Shown here: one piece after another, positions 9,308-36,045 of the stretch
How the letters are laid out: each line of letters begins with the position of its first letter
Numbering within the stretch: position 1 is the first letter of the stretch
NCBI GenBank assembly: GCA_018676855.1
Contig: JABHDY010000003.1
Location: 509,907-573,906 of the forward strand
DNA: 64,000 nucleotides
Reading direction: 5' to 3'
Origin: Candidatus Woesearchaeota archaeon
GTDB lineage: Archaea; Nanobdellota; Nanobdellia; Woesearchaeales; GW2011-AR9
Notes under the pieces: generated by a model
Told to the model about the DNA's origin: nothing
Seen by the model: only the letters and a program-made list of their open reading frames with translations
The model's database searches: none
Program-made: the position numbers and the translations under genes

Positions 9308-10699
9308 ATGTTAACTAAAGTTCTACAAAGACTAACTCCTTATGTTGCTGCTACAGCTATTGCTTTTAGTGGTGGGTGCAAGAGTGATGAAGAACATAAT
9401 GTTCCACAAAGAGAAACACCTTCATTTGCTTTAGAAGAAATAGTTCATTCAGGAAAAACTAATCAACAAGGAAAAACGATTTTTACTGAACGGTCAGGTG
9501 AGGTTGTTCCTGTAACCATTATAGATGAAACAAAAAAACCCATCACTGATACGTCTGTTGTTTTCTTTGATGGTAATGGTTTTAAAGCATATATGGTAAA
9601 TCATCCTAACTTTCTTCCAGATTTTCTAATTCATACACATAATAGTGGAAAAGTATTTCGATTAACAAAATCTCCCTTTCAGGCTCGCCATTATACTGGT
9701 TCAACTAATGAGAATTCTGTAGAAGCTACAAACAAGTTTGTTCAGAGTATGAAAACTACGAGAGAGAGACATTATGCAGAATGTATCACAGCAGAAGATG
9801 CAACATTTCGAGCAGAAGAAGAAAGTAACGTTTTTGATTTCATGGGAACATTACCCGGTGTTGGACAGGTTGTAACAGTAACACAAAGAGTGACTGGAAC
9901 ATATTATAAAGTAGTAGAGGCATTAGTTAATTCTGGTATCTTGAAAGGTGGAGAATGTGCAGCATTTCAAAAATGGTATATTGTTCCTCCTGCAACAGAA
10001 AAAGATGATAATATGCGGGCAGCATTATGGTTTTGGGAATGTTTACCATCTATTCCTGCAGAAGTGTGTGGTGATGGTATAGACAATGATTGTGATGGGA
10101 AAATAGATGATAAGGATAGTGATTGTAGCGATCAAGGTTTAGAAGAAAAAATTGGTAATACACATTCTGCAGATTATTTACCAAAGTCTCTTCAAACCAT
10201 TAAATTTGGTATGACATATGAACAAGTTCAATCCATACGAAACCTTACAAAATTAGAAAAACCTTCTTCAAGACGTCCTACACCAGGCATTGATGGTATT
10301 GCCTACGAAACTGTCGATAGTACTACATCGCAAGAAATTAGCAATTTCTTTGGTTCTGATTCTCTTGAAGGAGTTCGTGTCCAGTATATTTTTCAAGACG
10401 ATGGAAACAAAAAAGTTCTCAAAGTTATTTCTCTTGTTGTTGAAGGGGAAGGCAATGGTCCCTTTTTTGAATTAGCGGTTGAGAGAAACAATGAATATAA
10501 TAAACCTCGATTTCCAAATATGGCTCCTGGAGATTATTTAAGAAAAATGAGTGATAGTGATGCTATTTTTGTTCAAGCTTCAGTAAGTAAAAAGCCTGGA
10601 GAACCTAAAAAAGCGTTCTATCGTGTTGCACCTGGAAAGGATATGTGTGTTCTTACATGGCGTGATTGTGAACAATATGCTCATGCTTTATCTAAGTAA
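9308..10699 (+). CDS. Predicted lipoprotein with MopE-like motif, paralog 1
   Basis: 463 residues. The N-terminus has a short hydrophobic signal ending in the lipobox FSGGC (Cys 24), so the mature protein would start at a lipidated cysteine. Residues ~35-250 are shared with the next gene. Near residue 255 is VCGDGIDNDCDGKIDD, the Asp/Cys motif of the MopE-type putative metal-binding repeat. The C-terminal ~180 residues (from ~285) differ entirely from paralog 2. Substrate and partners are unknown. LspA and Lgt elsewhere in the window are consistent with lipoprotein processing. Confidence 0.75.
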   Translation: MLTKVLQRLTPYVAATAIAFSGGCKSDEEHNVPQRETPSFALEEIVHSGKTNQQGKTIFTERSGEVVPVTIIDETKKPITDTSVVFFDGNGFKAYMVNHPNFLPDFLIHTHNSGKVFRLTKSPFQARHYTGSTNENSVEATNKFVQSMKTTRERHYAECITAEDATFRAEEESNVFDFMGTLPGVGQVVTVTQRVTGTYYKVVEALVNSGILKGGECAAFQKWYIVPPATEKDDNMRAALWFWECLPSIPAEVCGDGIDNDCDGKIDDKDSDCSDQGLEEKIGNTHSADYLPKSLQTIKFGMTYEQVQSIRNLTKLEKPSSRRPTPGIDGIAYETVDSTTSQEISNFFGSDSLEGVRVQYIFQDDGNKKVLKVISLVVEGEGNGPFFELAVERNNEYNKPRFPNMAPGDYLRKMSDSDAIFVQASVSKKPGEPKKAFYRVAPGKDMCVLTWRDCEQYAHALSK

Positions 10700-10827
10700 C
10701 CACCTTATCGTTTACCACAACTTTTTTATCCTTCTTTTTTTTCATATTGCATACTGGGATGATCTTGTTGTTGATTGGTGAGGAAAGATAGAAAATAAAA
10801 AATAAAAAAGAATAGTCAAAATAAAAA

Positions 10828-12279
10828 ATGCTAACCACACTAATAAGAAAATTAACACCTTACGTTGCTGCTACAGCTATTGCTTTAAGTGGTGGGTGCA
10901 AGAAAGAGCATGATGTTAGAACTGTTTCTGATGAAAAAACTAGTGAAATAGTATTAGAAAAGATTGTTAAGTTCGAAAAAACAGATTCGCAAGGACAACT
11001 TACATTCATTGAACAATCTGGTGAAGTTGTTGATGTTACTGTTATCAATGAATCTGACAAACCTGTTTCAGGGGCCGAAGTAGTTTTTTTTGATGGTAAT
11101 GGGTTTAAAGCATATATGGTAAACCATCCTGATTTGACACCAGAGATTCCTATTTATGATCATAATAGCAAGAAAGTGTTTCGATTAACAAAATCTCCGT
11201 TACAAGTTAAACATTATACTGGTTCAACGAATGAGAATTCAACGAAAGCAGCTCAAGGATTTGTTGATACTCTTAAACTGACAAAAAGGCATTATGCAGA
11301 ATGTATAACTGCAGAAGATGCAAAATTTAGAGCTAAAGAGGAAAATAACATTTTTGATTTTATGGGTACAATTCCTGGTGCAGGACAAGTGGTAACGGCA
11401 ACTCAAAAAGTTACTAAAACATATTACAAAGTAATAGAAACTTTGGTTAATTCTGGTATCTTGAAAGGTGGAGAATGTGCAGCATTTCAAAAATGGTATA
11501 TTGTTCCTCCAACTGAAGATAAAGGAAATATACGGTCTGTATTATGGTACTGGGAATGTATACCATCTATTCCTGCTGAAGTGTGTGGTGATGGTATAGA
11601 CAATGATTGTGATGGAAAAATAGATGGTAAGGATAGTGATTGTATTGTTACTGACTCACAAGAAAAAAAAGGCTCTGTAACAATAGAAGAAACAATAAGA
11701 AGAATTTTCTCTTGTGAACCAGAAAACTTTGAGTTTACGTTACGCCATATTTATCTTCCTCGTTTTCATGAACAATATTCTGGAGATGAACTTGAAAAGA
11801 AAATGGCAGAATTTGTAAAAGATTATATGGGTCTGCCTCCATACACTAGTTATCACAATTTTCCCACCAAAAAAGAAGATCTTAAGAAAAAATGGCATGG
11901 CTTCTTTGTTGGATACGATTTTAATGTTTTAACACACACTATTGAAAATGACTGTTACTTGCATTCGTATATTCATTCTTCTAAAAGAAAAGTAGAGATT
12001 ACACGAGTTGTTGTTGGAAACCCGAAAGTATCAGATAAAAGTTTGGATGAACTCAAACCACGCTTTAGTAAAGTTAAAGAACATTATACACAAGAACTTT
12101 TTGGCCCTAAATTTGTTCCTGCAACAAGGAGTGTTACTGAAGCTTTAGTTTCATATAAAATTCATGATGAACCTATAACTCAAACATATAAATATTTTCT
12201 TCTGTTTGTTGATTTAGGAGATGGTCAACCTTTATTTCTTGATGGATTACAGGTTGATTACGATCGAACAGTAAAATAA
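10828..12279 (+). CDS. Predicted lipoprotein with MopE-like motif, paralog 2
   Basis: 483 residues, tandem paralog of the preceding gene. It shares the signal and lipobox (LSGGC), the ~230-residue N-terminal module and the MopE-like motif VCGDGIDNDCDGKIDG. A 65-base stretch of DNA (9926-9990 versus 11446-11510) is identical. The C-terminal domain, from residue ~285, is unrelated to that of paralog 1 and is richer in aromatic residues and His. A shared anchor module carrying different effector domains is the simplest reading. Confidence 0.75.
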   Translation: MLTTLIRKLTPYVAATAIALSGGCKKEHDVRTVSDEKTSEIVLEKIVKFEKTDSQGQLTFIEQSGEVVDVTVINESDKPVSGAEVVFFDGNGFKAYMVNHPDLTPEIPIYDHNSKKVFRLTKSPLQVKHYTGSTNENSTKAAQGFVDTLKLTKRHYAECITAEDAKFRAKEENNIFDFMGTIPGAGQVVTATQKVTKTYYKVIETLVNSGILKGGECAAFQKWYIVPPTEDKGNIRSVLWYWECIPSIPAEVCGDGIDNDCDGKIDGKDSDCIVTDSQEKKGSVTIEETIRRIFSCEPENFEFTLRHIYLPRFHEQYSGDELEKKMAEFVKDYMGLPPYTSYHNFPTKKEDLKKKWHGFFVGYDFNVLTHTIENDCYLHSYIHSSKRKVEITRVVVGNPKVSDKSLDELKPRFSKVKEHYTQELFGPKFVPATRSVTEALVSYKIHDEPITQTYKYFLLFVDLGDGQPLFLDGLQVDYDRTVK

Positions 12280-12344: not shown

Positions 12345-13691
12345 ATGGCGTTTGATGTTATCATCGGAAGAAGCTCGAAAGATGTTGAAAAGTATGGAAA
12401 AAGGGGTACTATTCTTATAGGAAAACAGTACGTTACGATGGGCCAGACAACGTCTTTATCGAACCCTGTGTATATGGATGTTGCTGGCGCTCATGTAGTT
12501 TTTATTGTGGGGAAGAGAGGGTCAGGAAAGTCGTACTCAATGGGTGCAATTGCAGAAGGATTAGCAGACTTACCGGAAGAGATTAAACAGAACCTTTCAA
12601 TTCTTTTATTAGACACGATGGGAATTTATTGGACAATGAAATATCCTAACATGCAAGATACTGACATTCTTACAAAATGGAACATAACACCAAAACCATT
12701 AAACGTCCAAATTTATACTCCTTCAGGCTTTTATACAAAATATAAAAAAGAGGGTATACCAACAGACTTTCCATTTTCTATCCAACCGTTAGATGTTGGT
12801 CCTCATGATTGGTGTGCAGCCTTCACCCTTAACCCGAACTCTGCTGAAGGTGTTCTTATAACCAGAATTGTTCAAGAACTTAAGGAAAAGGGCGAAAGTT
12901 ATTCCATGGAAGAACTTATTGAAATAGTTCGTCATGATACAGAAAGTGATTCAGTAACGAAAAATATTATCATAAACGAATTTGAAAAGGCAAATGGTTG
13001 GAAAATATTTTCGCGTGAGGGAACACCACTTAAAGATATTGTTTCTGCTGGCCAAGTAACAGTTCTTGACGTTTCGCCGTATGCAACAATGGCATCTGGT
13101 TGGGAAATTAAAGCGTTAGTTGTCGGTTTAATTAGTCGAACATTGTTTAATCAACGTATGCTTTCACGAAAAACTGAAGAGTTTAAGTCTGTTGATGCTG
13201 CCATGCATTACTTTTCAAAAGATGTTGAAGAAAAATTGTCAGAACCGCTTGTCTGGTTAGCTATTGATGAAGCTCATGAATTATTACCTAAGGAAGGTAA
13301 GACGGCAGCTACCGATGCATTAGTAACAATTCTGCGTGAAGGCCGCCAGCCAGGAATTTCGTTAATCTTAGCATCTCAACAACCTGGAAAAATAAGTACT
13401 GACGTTATGACACAATCAGATACAGTTATTGCACATCGATTAACAGCAAAGATGGATACGGATGCCCTGGGACAGTTAACACAGAGTTATATGCGTGCAG
13501 GTCTTGAACAAGAGATTAACATGCTGCCACGTGTTAAAGGTGCAGCAGTCATTTTTGATGATGCAAATGAACGAGTATTTCCTGTACAGATGCGTCCTCG
13601 GTCAACATGGCACGGTGGAAGTTCTCCCGTTGCAATACAAGAAAAGAAAAAGTATTTTGAAGATTCGTTAAAGAAGTTAAAGGAATTATGA
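12345..13691 (+). CDS. HerA/FtsK-superfamily ATPase (DUF87-type)
   Basis: 448 residues. Walker A is FIVGKRGSGKSYSMG near residue 58, Walker B is LVWLAIDEAHELLP near residue 307, and sensor-like LASQQPGKIS follows. The N-terminus carries a short beta-barrel-like HAS segment. HerA proteins are hexameric DNA translocases that work with the NurA nuclease in end resection; archaea also have stand-alone paralogs of this class. No NurA is adjacent. A hairpin starts directly after the stop codon. Confidence 0.88.
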   Translation: MAFDVIIGRSSKDVEKYGKRGTILIGKQYVTMGQTTSLSNPVYMDVAGAHVVFIVGKRGSGKSYSMGAIAEGLADLPEEIKQNLSILLLDTMGIYWTMKYPNMQDTDILTKWNITPKPLNVQIYTPSGFYTKYKKEGIPTDFPFSIQPLDVGPHDWCAAFTLNPNSAEGVLITRIVQELKEKGESYSMEELIEIVRHDTESDSVTKNIIINEFEKANGWKIFSREGTPLKDIVSAGQVTVLDVSPYATMASGWEIKALVVGLISRTLFNQRMLSRKTEEFKSVDAAMHYFSKDVEEKLSEPLVWLAIDEAHELLPKEGKTAATDALVTILREGRQPGISLILASQQPGKISTDVMTQSDTVIAHRLTAKMDTDALGQLTQSYMRAGLEQEINMLPRVKGAAVIFDDANERVFPVQMRPRSTWHGGSSPVAIQEKKKYFEDSLKKLKEL

Positions 13692-13785: not shown

Positions 13786-15216
13786 TTAAATTCTATTTTC
13801 AAGAGTTTCACGAAGACGTTTTTTTGCCTTTCCTAAACTAATTTGTATTGCTGTTTTTGAAACGTTAAAATGTTCTGCAATCTCGGTTTGGGAAGATTCC
13901 TCATATCCATTTAAACCATAATGCATCCAAAGGTATTCCTTCCAACGTTCTTGTGGTAAATCTTCTATTGCAGTCATTAACGCTGAGTTTCTTGTATTTC
14001 TTTCATGCGCTTCATCAGGCCTTTCGGAAGTTTTACCATCTTCTAATCCACTTCGATCATGATTACTTCGCTCAATAAACTCTCCAAATGTTACGTCATC
14101 ACCATCGCCTAAAGATTGCGATTTGTCTAAAGAGGTGGTGCCTTTTGCCGCACCCTGTAACCTATTCAAAGCTTTTGGCGTAAATGTTGTTCCATCTAAA
14201 ATTTCTTCTTCAATTGGATATCTTCCATGTTCACTACGATATTGTGCTATAAATTTTCGCAATGTTTTCATTTCTCTTTGAGCATTGTCAGGGATGCGAA
14301 TTGTGTCAGATTTTTTATCAATTGCATGTGTTATTGCTCCTTTTATCAAAATACCTGCATGCGAACTGAACTTATTGCCAAGTCTGTAATCAAACGTCTC
14401 TGCAGCTTTCATTAAACCAAAACTACCCTCATGAAGCAGATCAGCATAATCTAAACCACGATTGAGGTACATTTTTGCTATAGTAGCAATTAATCGAATA
14501 TTTCTCGTTACAAAAATTTCTCGCGCTTCAGAATAATTTGTCTCAGCTTTTTCAAAATTGTGAATATATTCTGCAAGGGTTGCTAAACGTGGAACTTCAA
14601 GTTGGTAATCCTTACTAATGACCATTCTTCTCGCAACAACTCGATGTTTTCCAATTCCTTGTGTATCTTTCTCATTTTCAAACTCAGTTAAAACATTCCA
14701 TGCCAATCTATATGTTTCCTTTCTAAAATGACTTTCCTTTTCCTTTTTATCAAATGTAACGTGTCGTGTAAGAAGTGCAGTATAAATTGCTAGTGCATCA
14801 TCCTGTTCATCTTCTGGGAAATCATTTAACAAATCCGTTTCATCTAACGCATACACTTGTTCTTTAAGTGTATCAAAATCTTGTGGAAGAATAATTGGTG
14901 GAACGTATCCTCTCTCACTCACCACTTTTCCCTTGAGAGTTTTGCTTGCACTTACTAACTTTTTTAATACTCTATATGTTGCTTCTTCTTTTTCTCCTCT
15001 TTGCGATCTTTTTAATGATTGATATAATTCATTAAGTGGTGCCGGAAATGCTGATGGATAACATAACGTTAACGTTGCAGCAATACCGCTCACTAGGAGA
15101 CGCGGTTCTTCTATTTTCCGAGCCAAATTCACTTCTCCACTTTGTGTGAGAAGAGAATACTGGCTTGCTTTATTGAGTAAAGATCGTGCCGCATCAGGTT
15201 CGTTTTGTATTGCCAT
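13786..15216 (-). CDS. Sigma-70 family RNA polymerase sigma factor (complete, in an archaeal background)
   Basis: 476 residues with all the hallmark regions: 1.2 (residues ~8-37, YSLLTQSGEVNLARKIE), a ~190-residue non-conserved region, 2.1-2.4 (~228-300; NIRLIATIAKMYLNRG, DLLHEGSFGLMKAAETFDY, KFSSHAG), 3.0-3.1 (~301-345; TIRIPDNA, HGRYPIEEEI), 3.2 (SLDKSQSLGDGDD...FGEFIE) and 4 (~411-474; ALMTAIEDLP, TEIAEHFNVSKTAIQ). In bacteria these recognise promoters for core RNAP. The region 2.3 tryptophan pair is replaced by Ile289-Leu290. Base composition matches its neighbours, and its own promoter has an archaeal TATA box. HtpX is upstream on the same strand. Confidence 0.93.
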   Translation of the reverse strand: MAIQNEPDAARSLLNKASQYSLLTQSGEVNLARKIEEPRLLVSGIAATLTLCYPSAFPAPLNELYQSLKRSQRGEKEEATYRVLKKLVSASKTLKGKVVSERGYVPPIILPQDFDTLKEQVYALDETDLLNDFPEDEQDDALAIYTALLTRHVTFDKKEKESHFRKETYRLAWNVLTEFENEKDTQGIGKHRVVARRMVISKDYQLEVPRLATLAEYIHNFEKAETNYSEAREIFVTRNIRLIATIAKMYLNRGLDYADLLHEGSFGLMKAAETFDYRLGNKFSSHAGILIKGAITHAIDKKSDTIRIPDNAQREMKTLRKFIAQYRSEHGRYPIEEEILDGTTFTPKALNRLQGAAKGTTSLDKSQSLGDGDDVTFGEFIERSNHDRSGLEDGKTSERPDEAHERNTRNSALMTAIEDLPQERWKEYLWMHYGLNGYEESSQTEIAEHFNVSKTAIQISLGKAKKRLRETLENRI

Positions 15217-15238
15217 ATGTATTTCCTATTATCAAATC

Positions 15239-15247
15239 TATAATAAA
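15239..15247 (-). promoter_or_regulatory. TATA box of the sigma factor gene
   Basis: On the reverse strand TTTATTATA lies 23-31 bases before the ATG at 15216. The sigma gene itself therefore appears to be driven by a TBP/TFB-type promoter. Confidence 0.55.
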
Positions 15248-15275
15248 CATCCATAATCTTCAGAACTTTTTTTAA

Positions 15276-16133: not shown

Positions 16134-16182
16134 ATTACTGTTTTATACTCTTCTGTTTAAAAATGTTATGATAACAGTAAAC

Positions 16183-21098: not shown

Positions 21099-22886
21099 TT
21101 ATCCTGCACCCCATACAGGATTATTCTTCCTTTTAATCTCAGCAATTTCTCTAAGAACGTTAATTTCTATTGTTGACAAATGTTTTCTCATATGTTTAAG
21201 TTTAATGAAATCATCTTCAGGAATGTCACTGTACAAAAAATCGCCCTCGTCAATCTGTCTTCCTACTGTAACGCCGTCCATTGCCATTGCAACTTGTTTA
21301 CCCTGATCAGCTATAGTCACATTTTCCTTACCCTCTTTCATACTTTTTACATGGGTAATCATCTTTCCTTCAATATTCATGATAGGGTCACCAGTTTTTA
21401 TCCTTCCAATTTCTATCTCAACACCAACGATAGCGGGATTGTTTTGTCTGAACGTGTATCCCTTTAGTATAGCAAACTTACACGGTCGTACTAATTTACT
21501 TAATTCTTCCAATTCAATATTTTTTGTGAGAGTTTCTACATACTTTTCATATTTTTCTATTGTTTGATAAATAACGTCATGCGTAATTACTTTAAGTTTT
21601 TTAACGATAAGGGTTTCTTCAATATCTGCTGGAATTTTAATATTGAATCCCAAAATAACGCCGTGAAACATATCTTTATCTCTCATAGCTTCCAATTTTG
21701 AGACATCTTTTTTTGTAACATCTCCAAGTGACGATGAAGATATAGGTATGTTCTTCTCTTGTAATAATGTTCGCAATGCTTCTAAACCACCAATTGTATC
21801 AGCTTTAATGATAACTCCTTCTGTATCATCACTTTCCGTTACAATTTCGCCAACTTCTTCCTGAACTTCATTCTTGGCAGCGGTAATTTCATCTTCTTTA
21901 TTTGAACAACTTCGTATTGGCATTCCTGCAATCGCGTTGTCTAACCCTGGCGCAGAAATTTTAACGCCCGTTGCTGCGTGAACTTCCTTAACATTCTTGA
22001 ACTTACTTTTCATGTCACGCATCTCAGCCAATTCTGCTGGTTCAAGTAACGCACGTACTTTAACAACAATTGGTTCGTCAATGGAACCAATAACAAGCGT
22101 ATCATTCACTTTTAGTTGACCATTATATATTATAGCGTTCAATGTTGTCCCTAACCCCTTTTCTTCTTTAACCTCTAAAATAGTTCCTTTTGCAGGCCCA
22201 GTTTCTTCAATCTGTAATGTTTGTTCAAAATATTTTTGTGCAAGTCCCGTAAGTACCATAAGTAATTCAGGAATTCCCTGGCCTGTCTGTGCAGATACGG
22301 GAATGATAGCAACTTGTTTAGTATAATCTTCAACCCTATCGAACCGTTCTGCTGTAAGTTCAATTTTTTGAAATTGTGCAACAAGTTCATATAACCGTTT
22401 TTCGAACTCTCCCTGAATTTCAAGATTAAGAGTACTAATATTTTCCATAAGAAACTTTTTCTCATCATGTTGCCAATGTGGTATTAAATCAATCTTGTTA
22501 GCAGCAACAATGAACGGTACTTTCTGCGCTTTTAAGATTTCTATAGATTCAATAGTTTGTGGTTTGAACCCTTCATTAATGTCAACCACAAGAATTGCTA
22601 TGTCTGCGAGTGATCCCCCTCTCTTTCGTAGTGAGGTAAAGGCTGCATGGCCAGGAGTGTCAATAGTTAGTAAACCAGGTACTGTAAGGTTTTGTTTGAT
22701 AGCATCTAATAGTTTTCCACATATCTTTTTGATAGTTTCAATGGGGATGGCAGAAACTCCAATAGCTTGCGTTATCGCTCCTGCTTCGCCAGATGCAACA
22801 ACGGTTGCTCTAACTTTATCTAATAAACTCGTTTTACCATGATCAACATGGCCAAGTACGGTTACAAGGACTTTACGGGTTGCCAT
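21099..22886 (-). CDS. infB: Translation initiation factor aIF5B
   Basis: 595 residues. The GTPase domain carries GHVDHGKTSLLD (P-loop), IDTPGH (G3) and ANKIDLIP (G4), followed by domain II, the alpha/beta/alpha domain III and a C-terminal domain IV. It catalyses ribosomal subunit joining. There is no intein in the P-loop region, a common intein site in archaeal IF2 genes. The PUA-like gene follows directly. Confidence 0.97.
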   Translation of the reverse strand: MATRKVLVTVLGHVDHGKTSLLDKVRATVVASGEAGAITQAIGVSAIPIETIKKICGKLLDAIKQNLTVPGLLTIDTPGHAAFTSLRKRGGSLADIAILVVDINEGFKPQTIESIEILKAQKVPFIVAANKIDLIPHWQHDEKKFLMENISTLNLEIQGEFEKRLYELVAQFQKIELTAERFDRVEDYTKQVAIIPVSAQTGQGIPELLMVLTGLAQKYFEQTLQIEETGPAKGTILEVKEEKGLGTTLNAIIYNGQLKVNDTLVIGSIDEPIVVKVRALLEPAELAEMRDMKSKFKNVKEVHAATGVKISAPGLDNAIAGMPIRSCSNKEDEITAAKNEVQEEVGEIVTESDDTEGVIIKADTIGGLEALRTLLQEKNIPISSSSLGDVTKKDVSKLEAMRDKDMFHGVILGFNIKIPADIEETLIVKKLKVITHDVIYQTIEKYEKYVETLTKNIELEELSKLVRPCKFAILKGYTFRQNNPAIVGVEIEIGRIKTGDPIMNIEGKMITHVKSMKEGKENVTIADQGKQVAMAMDGVTVGRQIDEGDFLYSDIPEDDFIKLKHMRKHLSTIEINVLREIAEIKRKNNPVWGAG

Positions 22887-31626: not shown

Positions 31627-34600
31627 ATGAAATTAACAACATTATTACTTGGAATGCTTATGCTTGTGTTGGTATTACCCTTCGCAAGTGCAAATGATGC
31701 TAGTGTTATAACATACTGGCTAGACAATGGTCAAAATGCTGGAGCAGGAGCACGGACAGTATTTGAAGGAGAGACAGTTAATTTCAAAGTTTATGCCGAT
31801 CCATGTTACAATTATAATGATTGTCGAGACATGGATTTGAGAGGAGTTATCCTTGACGAAAACAATAATGTAGTTGAAGAACTATTTAATTATAATAATT
31901 TGAGAGAAGTATTTGGCGATGATGAAACATCAGTATTTTCGTTTACTCCACAAACAGAAGGTACATACTATGTTGTTGTTGATACAGATGGTGCACAAAA
32001 TGCAGTTTGTGAAAACGAAAATAGTTGTTCAGTATTAGAATTATCAGTTGAAGAAGTACCACCAGTTCCAGAAGAAATTGTATGGGGTTGTACAGATTCT
32101 ACAGCAATAAATTATGATTCAGGGGCAAATAGAGATAATGGTTTTTGCAATCACAATCCTAGAATAGTTGTTATGGGACCACCAGCATATGATGATGTTG
32201 ATGGAGTTTATTATTACGATGGAAACATTGGTCGAGAATTTTATGTTAGACTTCGAGGACTAGATCAAGAACAAACAGACCTTACGTTTGCATGGAATCA
32301 TGCTGTTAATGGTGAAGGTAGCACCCCTCGTGGATTTACAATAGAGAACACTGACAATAGTAGAAATGGGTATTTTAGATGGACACCAACAACAACAGGA
32401 ACATTTGCCGCTAATATCATTTTAAACGATGGGTATGGTGGACAAGATACACAAATTGTTGTATTTACAATTGGCAATCATGCTCCAACATTAGACGTTA
32501 CTCCTGAACCTGATATGGAAACTATAAATCTGTGGAAATATGACGTTTATACAAATGAAGAGATTGATCTTGCAATAACCGCACATGATGTTGATAATGA
32601 CGAACTTGACATGTCTATTCAATGGACAAATGAATATGAACATCCTGGACTTGACTTTTCATACGGAGATGATTTAATTAATGTTCAATGGACACCTGAA
32701 GAATCTGGTGAGTATGGATTTATTGTTCGTGTGACAGATGGTAAAGTCTTTACAGAAAAAACCGTTGTGTTTAATGTTCTTAGTCCACAATTATTAGTAT
32801 ATCCAGTACAAGATTATTCTTTAACTGAAGAGTCTAACGCAGTATCATTTACACTTAACACTGCACAATTTAATCCGTTTAATGATGATGTGACATATGA
32901 TGTTCGTGTAGAACGTGAGGAATGTACAGGATTTTTCTGTGTTCCAGATAGATTCCGTGAATTGTTCTTACCAAGCGAAGCAGAATTTGATTCAGAAACT
33001 GGAGAATTTACATTTACACCAACGTACGATACTGTTGAACATCCAGACGAACACATTGAATACACATTCAAATTCCGTGCACAAGATGGATATCAAGAAT
33101 CTGAATGGGTAGAATCAACCATAAATATTGGTGATGTTAACAGAGAACCAGTTGTTGAACTATTATATCCTACAACTCTTTTGGTTGGGGAAGAAGGAAG
33201 TTTCGGCGCAATTATTGTAGAAAATGATGCAGACGGAGATGACCTTCGATTCATTTGGAACTTTGATGACATGGACGATTTATTTGGTCAGTATGTTGAT
33301 TATACATTTACTGTTGCAGGTGAACATTATGGAACTTTATTAGTTGACGATGGATTCGGTGATGTACTTGAATTTTCTTTTACCGTTATGGTAGAAGAAG
33401 AACCAGTAATTATTGTTCCAGTAAATCATGTTCCTACAATTAAAGGAATTACTGATAAAGAAGTTATGGAAGGTGAAACACTTGTCTTAAATATTGATGC
33501 ACGAGACGAAGATAACAGGGATACGTTATCGTACGAAATGCAACTTGTTGGACCTGTTAGTGAAGTTATGCAATCTAGTGGTTCATTTGATTCAGAAACT
33601 GGTAGATTTACGTTTACACCTAACTTTGACTTTGTTGCACATCCAAATTTAGAACGATCATTTGATGTAGAATTCAGAGCAGTTGACAATCATGGCGAAG
33701 CAACTGAATGGCAAGACGTAACTATTACTGTTATTGATGTTAATAGAAATCCAGAAATTATAGAATTTAACGTTCCAACAACAGTTATTATCGGAGAAGA
33801 ATTTGACGTTTCAGGAAATGCAGAAGATGCAGATAATGATGACCTTACCTATGAATGGATTTTTGCAAACGATGTAACTACAGAGAAAGAAGGTCAAGAA
33901 GCAACTCATACATTTGATCATTTAGGAGATTTTAGTGTTACTCTTAACGTCTATGATGCATTTGGTGGTTCAGATTTTCAAATAGTAATTCTTACTGTAG
34001 AAAATGAACCTGTTTGTAATCCTGCTGAAGTTGATAATGCAAATGTAGCTCCGTACCCAGAATGTACAGTAACTTGTAAAAAAGATTTTCATATGGAACG
34101 AGGCATTTGTGTAGCAGATCCTGACCCAGTTCCAGAAGTATGTGATCCTGCAGAGGTTGAGAATGGTCATGTAAGTTCATATCCAGCATGCGGAATTATG
34201 TGTGATAGAGGATATTACTTAGAGGGTACCGTTTGTATAGAAACTCCTGTACCAGAAGTATGTACTCCTGCTGATGTTGACAATGGTGACGTAAGTGCGT
34301 ACCCAGAATGTACAATCACGTGCGATACAGATTATCATCTTGAAGATAATACATGTGTTCAAGATATAGTACCTAATGTATGTACTCCTGCTGAAGTTGA
34401 TAATGCAAATGTTGCTCCCTACCCTATGTGTACAGTAACTTGTAAAAAAGATTTTCATATGGAAAGAGGTACATGTGTTGCGGATCCTGACCCAGTTCCA
34501 GAAGTATGTGATCCTGCAGAAGTTGCTAATGGTCATGTAAGTTCATATCCAACATGCGGAATTATGTGTGATAGAGGATATTACTTGGAGGGTACTGTTT

Positions 34601-36045
34601 GTATAGAAACTCCTGTACCAGAAGTATGTACTCCTGCAAGTGTTGACAATGGTGATGTAAGTTCATATCCAAAATGTACAATTACTTGCGATGTTGATTA
34701 TCATGTAGAAGGAAATGTTTGTGTTGCAAATCCTGAACTTGAAAATAACGTTCCAGTTATGGAACAATTAGATAACATGGAAGTGTATGAAGGAGAATCA
34801 ATTTCATTTAATGTTGAAGCTGAAGATGCAGATAGTGATAGATTAACATACAAAGTACGTGTTGATGGTAAACTGTTTAGTTTCATCTTACCCTCTGGAG
34901 CAAGTTTCAATAAAGCAACTGGCGAATTTACATTTTCACCAGATTATGACTTTGTTAATCATCCAGATTTAGAGAAAGATATAACGCTTAAATTCCGTGC
35001 ATATGATGGAGAAGATTGGTCTGAATATATGTTCGTTACTATTACTGTACTTGATGTTAACAGAAATCCTGTTATTACTGATGTATCAGTTCCATCACAA
35101 TTATTTGTTGGTGAAGAGGGAGAGTTTAGTGTTGACGCAAACGATGCTGATAACGATGCATTACAATACAGATGGAATTTTGGTGATAATACAAAAGTTC
35201 TTGGTGAAAATCAAGAACATGCATTTGATCGGGTTGGTACATATACAGTTACAATAATTGTAAAAGATGACTTCGGTGGACGTGTAGTAGAACAACGAAC
35301 TGTTCGTGTTGCACGAGAACCTGTATGTACTCCTGCTGATGTTGCGAATGGTCATGTAAGTTCATATCCAGCATGTACAATATCTTGTGATACAAATTAT
35401 CATGTAGAGGGAAGCGTTTGTGTGGCAGACCCAGAACCAGAAGTATGTACTCCTGCAAGCGTTGACAATGGCGATGTAAGTTCATATCCTGCATGTACAA
35501 TAACATGCGATACAGGATATCATAAAGAGAGTAATACGTGTGTAGCAGACCCAGTAGTTGTTCCTGGTTGTACAGATCCAGCCGCTTTAAACTATAATGC
35601 TGCAGCAACTGTTAGTGATAATAGTTGTGAATATGAAGTTGTTGTTGTTCTTGGTTGTACTGATGTAGAAGCGTCAAACTATAACGAGAACGCAAATAGT
35701 GACGATAATAGTTGTACATATCCTGTATTACGAGAGAACTTCTTTATCTCTCATGCTCATCCTTCGCAAGAAGTAGCAATGCCTGGAGACATTATTTTGT
35801 TTAGTATTGGTGTTGCAAACAATGGTGATGTAGAGTATGAAGATTTACGAGTAAAAGTGGTTTCGTACGACTTTGGCGTTATGGCATCATCTGGAAACTT
35901 TGACTTAGATAATGATGAAAGAACATCTGAAATTGTTCCATTTCACGTACCTTATGATGCATGGCCAGGCCAGTATACTGTGAAGATTACGGCAGGTAAT
36001 GATTACGTACGAAAAACAACCTATAGAATGATAACTATAGTCTAG
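31627..36045 (+). CDS. Giant secreted adhesin-like multidomain protein
   Basis: 1,472 residues with a signal peptide (1-22, ending PFASA-ND). Order: an N-terminal beta domain; a GCTDSTAINYD repeat (~155); several PKD/cadherin-like beta-sandwich domains (~190-795, D-x-N-x-D calcium-type motifs such as DADNDDLTY); six Cys-rich ~40-residue repeats (VC-PA-V-N..., four Cys each, ~796-1038); more PKD-like domains; two further Cys-rich repeats; two GCTD...NY...C repeats (~1316, ~1340); and a C-terminal beta domain. No sortase motif or C-terminal membrane helix is evident. Likely cell-surface binding. It starts 3 bases after the barrel-like gene. Confidence 0.8.
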   Translation: MKLTTLLLGMLMLVLVLPFASANDASVITYWLDNGQNAGAGARTVFEGETVNFKVYADPCYNYNDCRDMDLRGVILDENNNVVEELFNYNNLREVFGDDETSVFSFTPQTEGTYYVVVDTDGAQNAVCENENSCSVLELSVEEVPPVPEEIVWGCTDSTAINYDSGANRDNGFCNHNPRIVVMGPPAYDDVDGVYYYDGNIGREFYVRLRGLDQEQTDLTFAWNHAVNGEGSTPRGFTIENTDNSRNGYFRWTPTTTGTFAANIILNDGYGGQDTQIVVFTIGNHAPTLDVTPEPDMETINLWKYDVYTNEEIDLAITAHDVDNDELDMSIQWTNEYEHPGLDFSYGDDLINVQWTPEESGEYGFIVRVTDGKVFTEKTVVFNVLSPQLLVYPVQDYSLTEESNAVSFTLNTAQFNPFNDDVTYDVRVEREECTGFFCVPDRFRELFLPSEAEFDSETGEFTFTPTYDTVEHPDEHIEYTFKFRAQDGYQESEWVESTINIGDVNREPVVELLYPTTLLVGEEGSFGAIIVENDADGDDLRFIWNFDDMDDLFGQYVDYTFTVAGEHYGTLLVDDGFGDVLEFSFTVMVEEEPVIIVPVNHVPTIKGITDKEVMEGETLVLNIDARDEDNRDTLSYEMQLVGPVSEVMQSSGSFDSETGRFTFTPNFDFVAHPNLERSFDVEFRAVDNHGEATEWQDVTITVIDVNRNPEIIEFNVPTTVIIGEEFDVSGNAEDADNDDLTYEWIFANDVTTEKEGQEATHTFDHLGDFSVTLNVYDAFGGSDFQIVILTVENEPVCNPAEVDNANVAPYPECTVTCKKDFHMERGICVADPDPVPEVCDPAEVENGHVSSYPACGIMCDRGYYLEGTVCIETPVPEVCTPADVDNGDVSAYPECTITCDTDYHLEDNTCVQDIVPNVCTPAEVDNANVAPYPMCTVTCKKDFHMERGTCVADPDPVPEVCDPAEVANGHVSSYPTCGIMCDRGYYLEGTVCIETPVPEVCTPASVDNGDVSSYPKCTITCDVDYHVEGNVCVANPELENNVPVMEQLDNMEVYEGESISFNVEAEDADSDRLTYKVRVDGKLFSFILPSGASFNKATGEFTFSPDYDFVNHPDLEKDITLKFRAYDGEDWSEYMFVTITVLDVNRNPVITDVSVPSQLFVGEEGEFSVDANDADNDALQYRWNFGDNTKVLGENQEHAFDRVGTYTVTIIVKDDFGGRVVEQRTVRVAREPVCTPADVANGHVSSYPACTISCDTNYHVEGSVCVADPEPEVCTPASVDNGDVSSYPACTITCDTGYHKESNTCVADPVVVPGCTDPAALNYNAAATVSDNSCEYEVVVVLGCTDVEASNYNENANSDDNSCTYPVLRENFFISHAHPSQEVAMPGDIILFSIGVANNGDVEYEDLRVKVVSYDFGVMASSGNFDLDNDERTSEIVPFHVPYDAWPGQYTVKITAGNDYVRKTTYRMITIV
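34012..34743 (+). repeat. Two 366-bp tandem copies inside the adhesin-like gene
   Basis: Block A (34012-34377) and block B (34378-34743) each encode three Cys-rich repeats; repeat 1 matches 4, 2 matches 5 and 3 matches 6, with long identical DNA stretches. The copy is in frame, adding 122 residues. Confidence 0.85.

Follow-up and report, generated by a model that had tools for sequence, protein, structure and literature searches.

The window, a stretch of 64,000 nucleotides from the genome of a Woesearchaeon, carries on its minus strand at 13786-15216 an uninterrupted open reading frame of 476 amino acids (P0001) whose product belongs to the sigma-70 family. The initial annotation had located such a gene at this position; the intact frame was confirmed, and the strand, which that claim did not give, is added here. 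Promoter finding by RNA polymerase (RNAP) is held to differ between archaea, which use TBP/TFB, and bacteria, which use sigma factors. The features of the locus are as follows, with residue changes numbered after RpoD; the congener is Candidatus Woesearchaeota archaeon CG10_big_fil_rev_8_21_14_0_10_36_11.

12345..13691 (+), HerA/DUF87-like ATPase gene, the other flank, opposite M48, of the variable slot holding the sigma gene
13786..15216 (-), sigma-70-family gene P0001, 476 aa, identified by profiles, PDB search and model
13807..14001 (-), region 4, residues 406-470; helix fold retained; R584K, E585T, R588Q, Q589I
14062..14265 (-), region 3 match, residues 318-385, extending into the 3.2 linker
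14308..14391 (-), regions 2.3-2.4, residues 276-303; FSSHAGILIKGAITH against FSTYATWWIRQAITR in RpoD (Y430H, W433I, W434L, Q437G, R441H)
14392..14532 (-), regions 2.1-2.2 (core-binding), residues 229-275; equivalents of D403 and E407 retained; Q406H, N409S
14533..15105 (-), NCR-like helical segment, residues 38-228; 59% identical to the congener, above regions 3 and 4
15106..15177 (-), region 1.2-like segment, residues 14-37 (PF00140)
15238..15247 (-), TTTATTATAG, probably the "TATA box" of the initial annotation; no BRE, poor score
15276..16133 (-), M48 peptidase gene, on the strand of the sigma gene and separated from its upstream end by 59 bp; same pair in the congener
16156..16170 (-), leaderless BRE-TATA element preceding the M48 gene, 13.9 bits at -37; likely promoter of the M48-sigma pair

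P0001 genuinely belongs to the sigma-70 family and is probably of the RpoD-like (group 1/2) kind. It passed the cut-offs of Pfam Sigma70_r2 (PF04542; 45.1 bits, cut-off 24) and of the NCBIfam sigma70 superfamily model TIGR02937 (81.1 bits, cut-off 42.9), and the RpoD-like models TIGR02997 and TIGR02393 aligned to residues 220-473 with E values of 1e-42 and 1e-40, respectively; its 139.5 bits against TIGR02393 lie below the cut-off of 354 set for an RpoD equivalog. A sequence search of the PDB returned RpoD and SigA (E = 8e-30). In an AlphaFold model built from 41 Woesearchaeal sigmas the pLDDT exceeds 90 across most of regions 2, 3 and 4, and the top Foldseek matches in the PDB are sigma70 chains of RNAP complexes, aligned over the full length including region 1.2 and the NCR (E = 3e-15). 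The global TM score to these chains is 0.42-0.46, a low value which in this model probably stems from a different placement of the domains and a poorly modelled NCR. With the bacterial primary and group 2 sigmas (RpoD, SigA) the protein shares the fold, the core-binding motif GLDYADLLHEGSFGLMKAA and, as far as the weak region 1.2 match shows, the order 1.2-NCR-2-3-4, whereas its identity to them in the fold alignment is ~21-23%.

Regions 1.2, 2, 3, 3.2 and 4 had all been described as recognisable. Their order holds; taken singly, regions 1.2, 3 and 4 each score below their own Pfam cut-offs (15.9/22, 23.8/25.3 and 16.5/24.1 bits, respectively). Region 1.2 (PF00140) reaches 37.2 bits in the congener's orthologue, and in P0001 the part N-terminal to region 2 is long and helical. 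The order and fold of regions 3 and 4 are as in other sigma factors, the single domains lie just short of the cut-off, and the full-length models extend to residue 473. Profile searches, structure prediction and phylogeny had been suggested at the outset as checks on the gene: the first two place P0001 inside sigma-70 (Pfam and NCBIfam) and match its model to sigma70 chains over the whole length, while the third gives a partial answer. In a tree with 19 bacterial sigmas and one phage sigma, P0001 groups with the congener's protein (99), and the Woesearchaeal sigmas intermingle with the RpoD-like ones without a resolved order.

A likeness was also seen to MzaA of the MZA anti-phage system (NF041931, PDLC02203), whose profiles match residues 7-469 (NCBIfam, E = 1e-34) and 205-469 (PADLOC). 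P0001 attains 120 bits against the MzaA cut-off of 800, however, and the seven window proteins scanned gave no further mza match, so that an MZA defence system was rejected. A viral or plasmid origin was likewise discarded: the phage and plasmid matches are generic RpoD/RpoS-type sigmas with ~26-33% identity. IMG/VR, searched with the congener alignment, contained no relative.

The source genome (944 kb in 4 contigs, 93% complete) bears the gene on a contig of 704 kb, and P0001 is the sole protein in it with a sigma-70 region 2. One archaeal RpoA', one TFB and one TBP are encoded; a bacterial beta', as a second copy of the largest RNAP subunit, was sought in this genome and not found. The neighbouring genes are indeed archaeal in type, as first proposed, with aIF2/5B (21099-22886), topoisomerase VI A and B, and ABCE1 nearby. 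Further along the window (31627-36045) lies a gene for a 1472-amino acid protein with PKD/Ig repeats, likely a large surface protein.

Since the sigma-70 family is bacterial by origin, an assembly chimera or bacterial contamination had to be considered; we regard its probability as negligible. In the congener, an independently assembled MAG, the orthologous sigma gene lies between the same neighbours, with 12 matched genes and synteny on both sides, and a chimera is therefore excluded. The length of the 704-kb contig, a GC content (0.36-0.39) like that of the neighbourhood, the wide occurrence of sigma-70 in the phylum and a published check for mis-binning (Castelle et al. 2021, PMC8204110) argue in the same direction. 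The claim of the initial annotation that a sigma-70-family protein is encoded in an archaeal chromosome is thus upheld as to both family and native location; of the two findings that might have overturned it, a chimeric contig and a protein lying outside sigma-70, neither emerged when tested.

As a class, the Woesearchaeota sigma-70 proteins are of an already known kind, of which P0001 is a diverged variant. They have been published as fam00359 by Castelle et al. (2021, PMC8204110), no anti-sigma factor having been found for them, and the first description of archaeal sigma factors is credited, in PMC6126073, to Rinke et al. (2013). P0001 resembles the proteins of these reports in being RpoD-like, in residing in a DPANN host which keeps TBP/TFB/TFE and in having no known anti-sigma factor. 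"Rare", the word first used for the class, does not fit: about one third of the sampled genomes of the phylum (127/371) have a sigma-70 region 2, and the domain is kept in 93 of the 243 better genomes. Within the family, matches to P0001 itself occur in 34 of 49 genomes. Unlike most Woesearchaeota sigmas, P0001 is without the residues that melt the -10 and read the -35 element.

This was established from an alignment of E. coli RpoD with 66 Woesearchaeal sigmas, a set of best matches that leans to canonical members. In the E. coli protein, the -10 element is melted and recognised through Y430, W433, W434 and Q437, and the -35 element is recognised through R584, E585, R588 and Q589. Among these best matches Y430 is kept in 59/66, W434 in 57/66 and Q437 in 55/66, and in region 4 R584 is kept in 56/64, E585 in 57/64, and R588 and Q589 each in 58/64; Y430, W433 and W434 together with all four region-4 residues are present in 37 proteins of the 66. 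P0001 has H, I, L and G at positions 430, 433, 434 and 437, and K, T, Q and I at 584, 585, 588 and 589, and is one of five in the set (5/66) with no aromatic residue at 433/434. In the congener's orthologue the region-4 residues are also gone, and Y430, W434 and Q437 are retained. The core-contact residues D403 (61/66) and E407 (56/66) are common to most of the Woesearchaeal sigmas, and both are kept in P0001. Judged by the alignment, one new point is that P0001 has dispensed with Y430, W433, W434, Q437, R584, E585, R588 and Q589, which most Woesearchaeal sigmas keep; in these replacements, and in having an archaeal RNAP as the resident enzyme, it also differs from the bacterial RpoD/SigA situation. 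The initial annotation called the sigma factor complete, which in a functional sense it is not, the residues by which 2.3/2.4 and 4.2 read promoters having been substituted.

The sigma gene had also been credited with a leaderless-type TATA box of its own. To test this, a BRE+TATA matrix was learnt from the 511 free upstream regions of the source genome itself, with shuffled sequences as controls. Leaderless BRE-TATA promoters are found at -37 to -23 in this genome, 56% of the 511 testable genes scoring above the 95% point of the shuffles; the pattern, an A-rich block followed by TTTATAAA, thus applies to at least 56% of testable genes, and the TATA-poor genes have a GAGGTGA-type ribosome-binding site. 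Upstream of the sigma gene the matrix scores -4.3 bits, at the 13th percentile and under the shuffled median, against 13.9 bits upstream of M48, and a TATA promoter of its own was accordingly rejected. Given the strong BRE-TATA before M48 and the retention of the M48-sigma pair in the congener, the sigma gene is probably expressed by co-transcription with M48, and a predicted M48-sigma operon with M48 as first gene is likelier than a separate TATA promoter. TTTATTATAG itself sits within an upstream stretch (15216-15260) common to both species, ATGTTTAWTATAGAT; this has a single exact match across the source genome, at the sigma gene, and was rejected as a regulon marker.

The position of the gene is variable. 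Seven genomes of other genera, called sigma-less at this slot (G304, G101, G371, G167, G245, G199, G379), have the DUF87 and M48 genes close together, separated by 0.3-0.8 kb with unrelated small genes or nothing recognisable in between. The sigma gene is thus an accessory one, which the lineage of the genus either acquired at the slot or relocated to it. An NAD-kinase-like gene (L062:8405-9262) shares the slot in the congener and is absent from the source genome; a homologue of it, 33% identical, is located beside M48 in another genome (G062, L245).

Sigma identity between the two congeners is about 48-49%, with RpoA' at 95% and the other genes of the locus mostly at 83-92% (two small ORFs ~72%, MopE 61%). 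In this single comparison of two species, in which dS is near saturation (0.7-1.6), dN/dS is 0.32 for the sigma gene versus 0.04-0.16 in eight of the nine other genes compared (amino acid identity 71-92% for those eight), and only the MopE-like surface gene equals it (0.31). Two paralogous, fast-evolving MopE-like proteins with weak matches to Cu-binding motifs are encoded near the sigma gene (9308-12279). By part, the sigma identity is 57% in region 1.2, 59% in the NCR, 60% in 2.1-2.2, 51% in 2.3-3.0, 38% in region 3, 31% in the 3.2 linker and 30% in region 4; the segment between 1.2 and 2, initially described as long and non-conserved, is therefore among the better-kept parts. In other genera sigmas of congeners are 55-69% identical where RpoA' is 94-97% identical, which indicates fast evolution there too. 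Most of the other Woesearchaeal pairs compared (mainly congeners) keep 2.1-2.2 and 2.3-3.0 best and the NCR less so, and the pattern in the genus of the window is therefore unusual. Constraint there has been lost on the promoter-reading parts and retained on the polymerase-binding and N-terminal parts; on the preferred reading given below, purifying selection on P0001 is weakened yet real.

Decay could explain the relaxation equally well. A decaying or weakly used, horizontally acquired sigma, still constrained chiefly in its N-terminal half, would account for the elevated dN/dS, the 30-38% identity of regions 3-4, the changing location and variable slot, and the loss by the source-genome protein of key residues beyond those lost by the congener. 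We nevertheless give this explanation a rather low probability: the 476-codon frame is intact, as is that of the congener, despite a dS of ~1 in neighbouring genes, residues 1-275 are constrained at 57-60%, and the domain persists in the better genomes of the phylum at the frequency given above.

Our preferred reading, put forward tentatively, is that P0001 is an acquired, fast-evolving, polymerase-binding accessory factor whose promoter reading has been altered or lost. Family membership, native synteny, the variable slot, the dN/dS, the pattern of constraint, the loss of residues and the presence of archaeal RpoA', TFB and TBP support it. An ancestor of this Woesearchaeal genus would have acquired an RpoD-like sigma into a variable chromosomal slot. 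Because constraint is concentrated on 2.1-2.2 and on 1.2/NCR, the protein may be expected to bind a multisubunit RNAP through region 2.1-2.2, aided by a 1.2/NCR module, and the target would most likely be the resident archaeal enzyme, no other RNAP having been found in the genome. P0001 would no longer read -10/-35 elements as a bacterial sigma does and, being without that chemistry, would modulate rather than direct initiation, as an accessory regulator with altered or absent promoter sequence specificity. It would be expressed together with the M48 peptidase gene.

What seems to speak against the preferred reading is the clamp of the resident polymerase. At the positions equivalent to beta' R275, E295 and A302, which we take to be implicated in sigma binding, RpoA' has I, L and H. 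Its clamp coiled coil is nearly invariant in 30 family genomes with or without a sigma gene (only 3 of them sigma-less), so that nothing in this sample shows the resident polymerase to have adapted to sigma.

P0001 may instead be an active alternative initiation factor that directs the resident archaeal RNAP to a small number of dedicated promoters; its specificity would have moved away from TTGACA/TATAAT, which would explain the changed residues in 2.3/2.4 and 4.2. This we think possible, though unlikely. The -10/-35 residues are among the best-kept positions in proteins of the class that are ~20-25% identical to P0001 over their length, and their retention in so diverged a class suggests selection for promoter reading, be it in archaea or in whatever the sigmas act on. 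The predicted fold of regions 2-4 is intact, and the gene has a conserved non-BRE element upstream in both species. Yet that element has a single exact match in the genome, the melting aromatics are gone, and a scan for -10/-35-like elements, also suggested by the initial annotation, showed no enrichment of consensus pairs in sigma-carrying genomes. In 80 such genomes of the order TTGACA-N16-18-TATAAT occurs 116 times versus 115 at the wrong spacing of N22-24; in 119 sigma-less genomes of the order the counts are 188 versus 149. Two bacterial genomes gave 15 and 7 versus 2 and 2 in backwards controls, and the test is therefore able to see real promoters. There is no peak at a 17-bp spacing around the canonical sigma genes, and the DNA upstream of 30 of them has no more sigma-70-like promoters than expected by chance. 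A regulon of its own through bacterial consensus promoters and auto-regulation of the canonical sigma genes were both rejected on these grounds.

The absence of matching promoters from resident genomes would also be expected if Woesearchaeal sigmas reached a bacterial partner cell and redirected its RNAP. The sigma-side contacts stay bacterial (D403, E407) where the archaeal clamp is without the bacterial partner residues, and the fast evolution and the tandem copies in some genera are compatible with such a role. We hold it to be quite improbable: several genera have the sigma gene within a housekeeping operon with isoleucyl-tRNA synthetase (IleRS), and cultivated DPANN have archaea as partners, according to the abstract of PMC11291902.

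These operons differ from the arrangement at the present locus, where P0001 occupies the DUF87-M48 slot. In other genera of the family one to three sigma genes lie directly downstream of a gene for a small DUF7343 membrane protein and are often followed by IleRS. The arrangement was seen in about ten genera (G043, G101, G245, G027, G374, G375, G049, also G061, G054, G386, G094), for example:

DUF7343, then 1-3 sigma-70 genes, then (often) IleRS: L065:8689-12073, L070:2594-10136, L249:7172-12373, L250:4189-9567, L252:86-5275, L253:1817-6994, L069:11181-13299

The DUF7343 protein consists of an N-terminal signal, an Ig-like domain, one further predicted or likely transmembrane stretch and a C-terminal DUF7343 winged helix. 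It stays paired with sigma in G049 and G374, from whose operons IleRS has departed, and in G375, where IleRS was not seen adjoining sigma; in the source genome and congener it is found just before IleRS with no sigma gene between. As DUF7343 matches, some of them weak, occur in 45 of 49 family genomes, it is not exclusive to sigma, and common operon ancestry offers an alternative to functional coupling as the apparent cause of the adjacency. This membrane-anchored winged-helix protein is a candidate regulator or anti-sigma-like partner, and its place immediately before the sigma genes of about ten genera makes it a concrete candidate for the missing regulator.

Most sigmas in a large archaeal group thus keep the bacterial melting and reading residues despite an archaeal polymerase, a clamp that shows no adaptation and no excess of matching promoters; either sigma factors can act on archaeal RNAP, or their target is the polymerase of another organism. 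That bacterial-type sigmas drive transcription by archaeal RNAP (or target the bacterial RNAP of a partner) in a third of the phylum, with P0001 as a derived, polymerase-binding form devoid of promoter reading, is a combined proposal that we consider doubtful. P0001, as a natural variant without the promoter-reading residues, provides a ready-made separation-of-function comparison.

Some Woesearchaeal genomes have two or three diverged sigma-70 genes in tandem (L252:86-4498, L253:2557-6994, L254:8386-10803). In other Woesearchaeal sigma-70 genes an otherwise canonical RpoD-like core is preceded by a very long extension at the N-terminus, with lengths up to 1741 aa (L071:5316-10541, L067:9385-12018, L063:8220-10406); the extension in L071 contains repeated small modules of helix-turn-helix-like appearance.
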